From the NCBI RefSeq assembly GCF_030812675.1, contig NZ_JAUSTE010000002.1:124001-188000 (forward strand): a stretch of DNA of 64,000 bases. Direction: 5' to 3'. This DNA comes from Sinomonas atrocyanea (GTDB lineage Bacteria; Actinomycetota; Actinomycetes; Actinomycetales; Micrococcaceae). This document shows, in pieces, positions 12,861-14,273 of the stretch. The number at the start of each line of letters is the position of its first letter. Position 1 is the first letter of the stretch. A model generated the notes under the pieces. The model was not told the DNA's origin, made no database searches, and saw only the letters and a list, made by a program, of their open reading frames with translations. The translations under genes were made by a program, and so were the position numbers.

Positions 12861-14006
<1,146 letters not shown>

Positions 14007-14066
14007 GGGGTCCTGTCCTTCATCTGCAGGCCCCGCGGGGTCCAGAGCCTGCCGTTGGTATGGCAA

Positions 14067-14094
14067 AGGGCAAGGACCGTGAGGTCCCTGCCCT
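14067..14094 (-). terminator. Attenuator hairpin in the DAHP synthase leader
   Basis: On the minus strand AGGGCAGGGACC-TCAC-GGTCCTTGCCCT forms a 12-bp stem with one G.U pair and a 4-base loop, followed by TTTGCC. It lies between the leader peptide stop (14124) and the DAHP synthase start (14006). The short T-run makes it a moderate intrinsic terminator at best, as is usual in high-GC genomes. A 12-base segment immediately 5' of it (14095-14106) is complementary to leader codons 10-14. Confidence 0.7.
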
Positions 14095-14123
14095 GTTGGC
14101 TCTGGAAGTCGGTACGCGAAACT

Positions 14124-14177
14124 CTACGCTTGGCCCTCCAGAGCCAACGCAAAATACGCATACCAACGCTTGAACAT
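14124..14177 (-). CDS. Aromatic-rich leader peptide of the DAHP synthase operon
   Basis: A 17-codon frame MFKRWYAYFALALEGQA ends in TAG 118 bases before the DAHP synthase start. Five of its first nine residues are Phe, Trp or Tyr (F2, W5, Y6, Y8, F9), the end products of the pathway. A promoter-like pair TTGGCG (14208-14213) and TAGCCT (14184-14189), spaced 18 bases, would start transcription at the A of this ATG, so the peptide is predicted leaderless. No good Shine-Dalgarno exists. The peptide and the hairpin downstream fit transcription attenuation by ribosome stalling. Not tested. Confidence 0.75.
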   Translation of the reverse strand: MFKRWYAYFALALEGQA

Positions 14178-14183
14178 GCGCTC

Positions 14184-14213
14184 AGGCTAGCCCGTACGGT
14201 CCGCCGTCGCCAA
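14184..14213 (-). promoter_or_regulatory. Predicted promoter of the DAHP synthase leader
   Basis: On the minus strand TTGGCG and TAGCCT are separated by 18 bases, and six bases separate TAGCCT from the leader ATG at 14177. The expected start site falls on that ATG. The hexamers are only fair matches to the housekeeping consensus. Confidence 0.45.
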
Positions 14214-14273
14214 ACGCCGCATCAGGACATGCCGTAATACTCCGAAGTTTCCGGCGCGTCCTGATGCGGCGTT
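14213..14273 (-). terminator. Long inverted repeat after gdhA
   Basis: Perfect 16-bp arms AACGCCGCATCAGGAC (14213-14228) and its complement (14258-14273) around a 29-base centre. The repeat begins 15 bases beyond the gdhA stop, so a terminator for gdhA is the simplest reading. The loop is unusually long and no T-run follows. Its distal arm touches the -35 region predicted for the DAHP synthase leader. Confidence 0.55.

Follow-up and report, generated by a model that had tools for sequence, protein, structure and literature searches.

The window, by which we mean the whole stretch of 64,000 nucleotides of Sinomonas atrocyanea DNA that was analyzed, carries on its minus strand a gene for a class I DAHP synthase of the aroFGH type (12861 to 14006; TIGR00034, 463 bits; PF00793, 282 bits), which we take as the regulated gene. 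It is preceded by a leader peptide open reading frame (ORF) of 17 codons plus a stop codon, MFKRWYAYFALALEGQA (14124 to 14177). The minus strand is the strand of the whole feature, and all the elements described below lie on it. The ATG of the DAHP synthase gene is at 14006, with a Shine-Dalgarno-like AAGGA at 14016 to 14020, and 117 nt separate the leader stop codon from this ATG. The aromatic codons of the leader are W5 (14165 to 14163), Y6 (14162 to 14160), Y8 (14156 to 14154), and F9 (14153 to 14151). An aromatic leader of 17 codons ahead of DAHP synthase had been proposed in the original prediction, every named piece of which was present in the sequence, and the frame of the leader turned out to be kept both within the genus and across families.

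Two promoter-like hexamers lie upstream of the leader, TTGGCG (−35-like, 14208 to 14213), with a TTTG-type box at the corresponding position in most of the Micrococcales relatives, and TAGCCT (−10-like, 14184 to 14189), which ends 6 nt before the leader ATG. The spacing between them is 18 nt and puts the predicted start of transcription on or next to the leader ATG, in agreement with the original prediction of a promoter pair with a start site on the ATG. A TAnnnT box ending 6 to 8 nt before the leader start was found in 127 of 161 relatives, compared with 2 of 161 for a control window further upstream, and just 8 of the 161 had a Shine-Dalgarno-like sequence before the leader. Since the TAnnnT spacing is conserved and such sequences are rare before the leader, the data fit a leaderless transcript that would start at the ATG. 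Upstream of the leader, in the same direction, lies gdhA. A long hairpin (CGCCGCATCAGGAC...GTCCTGATGCGGCG, 14215 to 14271) was observed 3' of gdhA and before the leader promoter, ending beside its −35 box.

RNA segments and their pairing

The leader and the region downstream of it comprise a series of segments with alternative partners. Segment A (GTTGGTATGCG, codons 4 to 7; 14157 to 14167) can pair with A' (CGCGTACCGAC; 14108 to 14118), located directly 3' of the leader stop codon; the mean z of this pairing was −1.44 in Micrococcales and was weaker elsewhere. Segment B (GTTGGCTCTGGAGG, codons 10 to 15; 14135 to 14148) has as its partner either segment C (CTTCCAGAGCCAAC; 14095 to 14108) or, within the ORF, B' (GGGCCA; 14131 to 14136), which forms a leader-internal hairpin with TGGCTC (14146 to 14141). 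The energy of the B:B' hairpin was below −4 kcal/mol in 158 of 160 leaders. The stretch GTTGGCTCTGGA (14148 to 14137) is the exact complement of TCCAGAGCCAAC (14106 to 14095), and the B:C helix reaches 14 bp when folded. Directly where C ends begins hairpin T (AGGGCAGGGACC/GGTCCTTGCCCT; 14067 to 14094), a terminator-like structure of 12 bp (14094 to 14083 with 14078 to 14067) and a TTGCC tail. Beyond it lie a small hairpin P (TGCC...GGCA; 14050 to 14065), whose loop contains CATACCAACG (14062 to 14053) and is not conserved in sequence, and segment D (14041 to 14049). The latter is a second copy of GGCTCTGGA, was absent from the original prediction, and is also complementary to TCCAGAGCC in C (14106 to 14098), so that C has two possible partners. 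When C pairs with D, hairpin P lies in the loop.

We then determined how far these pairings are conserved. Of 315 loci with usable upstream DNA, 191 yielded leaders, 161 of them distinct, and in these 161 relatives the RNA element is kept across Actinomycetes. The segment at codons 10 to 14 had been predicted to be complementary to the stretch just before the hairpin; in the window the complementarity is exact, and over 12 positions in the 161 leaders B:C showed 95% standard pairs, compared with 26 to 49% in slid registers. Compensatory changes included T-A/C-G at offsets −1 and +5, A-T/G-C at +8, and G-C/T-A at +9. In an alignment of 30 sequences, 13 pairs of B:C and hairpin T were changed on both sides, and the covariation score was 0.415, compared with 0.184 for shuffled alignments (none of 500 reached the observed value) and no more than 0.164 for slid ones. 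A 12-nt exact complement so near is rare in itself and conservation settles the question; the B:C pairing is therefore not due to chance. We also considered whether B:C might extend into hairpin T and rejected this, since the longer helix would need a mismatch and G-U pairs in some Micrococcales and is missing in the window.

Hairpin T itself, originally described as a 12-bp hairpin with a TTT tail, was borne out, since at 10 of 11 pairs both bases had changed, whereas its tail did not prove to be a real U-tract. The C:D pairing was found in 87% of the cells of the Micrococcales alignment and was better than in dinucleotide shuffles in three groups (z of −2.7, −1.9, and −1.4). Judged from these alignments, C is the switch segment, choosing between two conserved partners, B and D, and it is in this respect that the attenuator reading is refined. 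The second pairing of the original prediction, CGTTGGTATG with CATACCAACG, is literally present in the window but fared no better than shuffles (mean z of −0.21), and CATACCAAC, the sequence of that second pairing, occurred in just 2 of 111 Micrococcales leaders. The partner of the segment with the Trp-Tyr codons is, rather, CGCGTACCGAC, which follows the stop codon.

Leader peptides of the relatives

All 15 genomes of the genus have the leader ahead of the DAHP synthase gene, and the same leader region was found in Sinomonas notoginsengisoli (L001) and in another member of the genus (G009). Other Micrococcaceae genera have leaders of the MTNRWYAYFSLALEGPASN type, Microbacterium has MTRWYAYFESALEGPSRD, and leaders further out in the class read RRYPYFAQAPGGA, RWYWRFTSAPGGA, or YWRFIEAPGGA. 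In three groups the start of the ORF, its frame, and its aromatic codons are retained in differing sequence contexts, and the offsets of the aromatic codons from B are fixed, at −20/−17/−11/−8 or −17/−14/−8; the former are TGG, TAT, TAT, and TTT in Micrococcales, and the latter are TAT, TGG, and TTT in group f22. The leader codons for Tyr were TAT rather than TAC by 279 to 2 and those for Phe were TTT rather than TTC by 161 to 11, a bias opposite that of three neighboring genes of the window (TAC to TAT, 24 to 3; TTC to TTT, 31 to 1). The comparison that had been suggested together with the original prediction, in which relatives are examined for the leader frame, the aromatic codons, and compensatory changes, thus gave a positive result on a large sample.

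In two leaders, L162 (the same as L006; one extra base) and L189 (one base fewer), the frame is lost after the aromatic codons and the RNA segments are intact. These frame-shifted Micrococcaceae leaders constitute natural tests of peptide versus RNA. In one group of Mycobacteriales (L287, L289, L291, L294, and L297), the leaders are of the MQRAYFWFTEPALGGP type; there C folds directly onto an adjacent CCGGCTC to give a hairpin, and T is absent.

Distribution of the element

To describe the distribution of the element, we used a covariance model built from B, C, and T, with a strong match set at an E value of up to about 1e-15. In the window's own genome the single strong match was the present locus (E value of 4e-22). 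Among 197 genomes of the family there were 80 strong matches, and a comparison of the lists revealed that these were exactly the sampled genomes with a class I DAHP synthase, the element preceding the gene in all 80. The 117 family genomes without this enzyme gave no strong match and just four matches with E values of 2e-4 to 6e-4. The best matches in 297 genomes of the class again preceded DAHP synthase. In genomes of group f35 without a class I DAHP synthase (Streptosporangiaceae type), the element precedes a DAHP-synthase-like plus chorismate mutase protein and, in one case (L355), a stand-alone chorismate mutase. Its presence ahead of chorismate mutase genes too indicates that the element tracks the aromatic pathway and not one gene.

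Loci L348 to L355 have, at about position 190 to 300 in the orientation of the element, leaders such as MNRSFAFIEPAPG or MTCRYAFIEPAPGGP, and their DAHP synthase-like/chorismate mutase fusion is degenerate. A class I DAHP synthase was unmatched in 217 of 395 sampled family genomes, mostly smaller ones; family genomes without it presumably use another type of the enzyme.

In Rfam 15 no family scored above its gathering threshold, the best subthreshold match being 19.4 bits against the 80 needed. The literature search found no text mentioning RWYAYF and no earlier account of the element, neither for Arthrobacter nor among RNA motifs.

Comparison with known attenuators

In Corynebacterium glutamicum, a leader peptide named AroR, which contains Phe-Tyr-Phe, is reported to be encoded ahead of aroF (Neshat et al. 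2014, cited in PMC11802643, PMC4046766, and PMC7356990), and limitation of Phe, not of Tyr, is reported to increase aroF transcription (the same study, via PMC11802643). A C. glutamicum-like genome (L358) was located via a published aroF primer, its aroF start having 3 mismatches to the published one. Its leader is MFAARFYFMTGSGASPRKLAINCAS (MFAARFYFM...), followed by B (GGCTCCGG), C (CCGGAGTC), the hairpin, and then TTTTTT. The R-F-Y-F motif is shared by the leaders of L358, L259, and L284, of which L259, from the same genus as L358, was included in the covariation alignment. The aroR-aroF system thus has an aromatic leader before a class I DAHP synthase and the same leader-B-C-T order as the window. 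Since the region upstream of the C. glutamicum-like aroF has this same layout, the element of the window is a relative of AroR beyond mere functional likeness. The two differ in the leader, W-Y-A-Y-F in the window versus F-Y-F in aroR, and in the hairpin, which is without a U-tract in the window and a U6 terminator in the C. glutamicum-like genome; furthermore, a partner of C in the form of D is clear in the window.

The trp attenuators of Corynebacterium and Streptomyces (Seliverstov et al. 2005, PMC1262725) resemble the window in having a short leader ORF with codons for the product of the pathway and an alternative pairing. They differ in that their UGG codons are consecutive and their antiterminator shares a segment with a U-tract terminator, whereas the B:C helix of the window does not overlap its hairpin. 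According to the same 2005 survey, which dealt with Actinobacteria, phenylalanine or tyrosine genes are preceded by no conserved RNA structure (PMC1262725). In the pheA, pheST, and trp attenuators of gammaproteobacteria, ribosome stalling picks between two folds, as we propose for the window (general knowledge; PMC11802643), but terminator and antiterminator overlap in the classical way, unlike in the window, and the likeness is one of the mode of working, the two not being known to be related in sequence.

Proposed mechanism and its output

Taking the relatives and the identical layout of the C. glutamicum aroR-aroF region together, the leader-peptide attenuator reading of the original prediction is well supported, and we consider it highly likely that an AroR-aroF type attenuator that works through the ribosome lies ahead of the DAHP synthase gene. 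The aromatic-rich leader and the switchable fold very probably serve as a supply gauge for the enzyme catalyzing the first step in the synthesis of aromatic amino acids. Transcription would start on the leader ATG, and a ribosome would translate the leaderless peptide. The downstream edge of a ribosome lies about 14 nt from its A site. Given the offsets of the aromatic codons, a ribosome with W5 or Y6 in its A site would leave B free, while one at the stop codon would cover it. When charged Trp, Tyr, or Phe tRNA is short, the ribosome would thus be expected to stall at codons 5 to 9, and B, just ahead of it, would take C. With a good supply it would reach the stop codon and cover B, leaving C for D, and in the absence of a ribosome B would fold on itself and A on A', so that C would again be left for D. 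The B:C helix would accordingly represent the starvation (ON) state, with increased DAHP synthase expression, and C:D, closing around T, the OFF state, this direction of control being the one suggested by the arrangement.

As to what the switch acts on, B:C ends at 14095 and T starts at 14094, the two abutting and not overlapping, and the folding gave a formation probability of T of 0.95 to 0.98 in both states. Since B:C does not overlap T and T forms in either state, the arrangement does not provide a classical antiterminator that would exclude the terminator, and control of transcription rather than of translation is for the former reason put forward as a proposal. Hairpin T is strong but is followed by no real U-tract in the window (tail TTTGCC) or in most Micrococcales (TTCGCCATT). 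A U-tract does follow T in relatives L147, L279, and L358, and L301 has a classical CCCCG..CGGGGTTTTTT hairpin that takes in part of C. Provided that the element is an attenuator, the switch probably decides whether transcription ends at T or reads through it, as has been reported for aroF of C. glutamicum, an output favored by the C. glutamicum data and by the U-tracts in relatives; the main alternative, control of DAHP synthase translation via the downstream fold, is possible but less probable. We tentatively suggest, at somewhat less than even confidence, that the element represents a class-wide, nonclassical family of actinobacterial attenuators in which the helix built by stalling, B:C, butts end to end on T, C otherwise pairs across T with D, and the whole is reused before chorismate mutase genes. 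The nonclassical route would be either a helix plus stalled ribosome docked at the base of the terminator or a relay that reaches the ribosome binding site.

Alternative explanations

Such a relay, taken as an explanation in its own right, would make the element a translational attenuator: a further segment, E, would otherwise cover the Shine-Dalgarno region of the DAHP synthase gene, and B:C would free D, which would take E and open the start site. We regard it as rather unlikely. It is favored by the location of D beyond T, where the competition of C:D with B:C is possible just in read-through RNA, and the D:E and E:Shine-Dalgarno complementarities were on average better than those of shuffles (z of −0.7 to −1.6, with controls of about 0 in Micrococcales and f38). 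In Mycobacteriales the E:Shine-Dalgarno hairpin even appears to covary (GAGTGCC/GGCACTC, GTGTGCC/GGCACAC, GGGTGCC/GGCACCC, and AGGTGCC/GGCACCT). However, the support within each group is weak, one f22 control also reached −0.6, removal of C did not raise the access to the Shine-Dalgarno sequence in equilibrium folding (off/on of 0.42/0.38, 0.42/0.41, and 0.41/0.42), and clear terminators with a U-tract are present instead in some relatives.

The striking conservation of RWYAYFxLALEG in Micrococcaceae could also suggest an arrest peptide, the nascent chain halting the ribosome on a free aromatic amino acid in the manner of TnaC and tryptophan. What is conserved, however, are the nucleotides including wobble positions, CGTTGGTATGCGTATTTT being near-invariant over many genera; the conserved LALEG/APGG codons coincide exactly with segment B, the peptides of other families differ (RRYPYF, GYWRFI, and RFYF), and the RNA segments persist in the frame-broken leaders L162 and L189, all of which makes an arrest peptide very improbable. 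We give equally little credence to a metabolite- or tRNA-binding RNA, i.e., a riboswitch or a T-box-like element with an incidental short ORF. The high nucleotide conservation, the class-wide spread, and the lack of an Rfam match would be compatible with it, but no T-box or riboswitch model matches, the promoter spacing places the ATG at about +1, and the start, frame, and aromatic codons of the ORF are kept across different contexts in three groups. Finally, the position of gdhA, upstream and in the same direction, might make the structure a plain terminator or processing site of that gene and the ORF a product of chance. Yet gdhA has its own hairpin ahead of the leader promoter, and within the family the element goes with class I DAHP synthase, being carried by 80 of 80 genomes that encode the enzyme and not by those that lack it; this co-occurrence together with the covariation refutes the gdhA reading, to which we assign practically no probability.

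Significance and related leaders

Attenuation of the AroR type is already known; the larger point is that it is widespread, uncatalogued in Rfam, and arranged unlike a textbook attenuator. If the attenuator reading is true, leader-peptide control of the entry into the aromatic pathway is an old device, common among actinobacteria and not confined to the one Corynebacterium for which it was reported in the papers found. The three-partner switch of B, C, and D and the covariance model are now available for testing. The puzzle they pose is how expression is controlled by a switch that does not overlap a terminator, in a group with few recognized intrinsic terminators.

Betaproteobacterial class I DAHP synthase genes were also seen to be preceded by leaders, of a different kind, with FYFWF-type clusters (L016, L025, L029, L030, L031, L033, L034, L041, L044, and L049). 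These leaders have a classical GC-rich hairpin (e.g., CCGCCGG..CCGGCGG) and a long U-tract.
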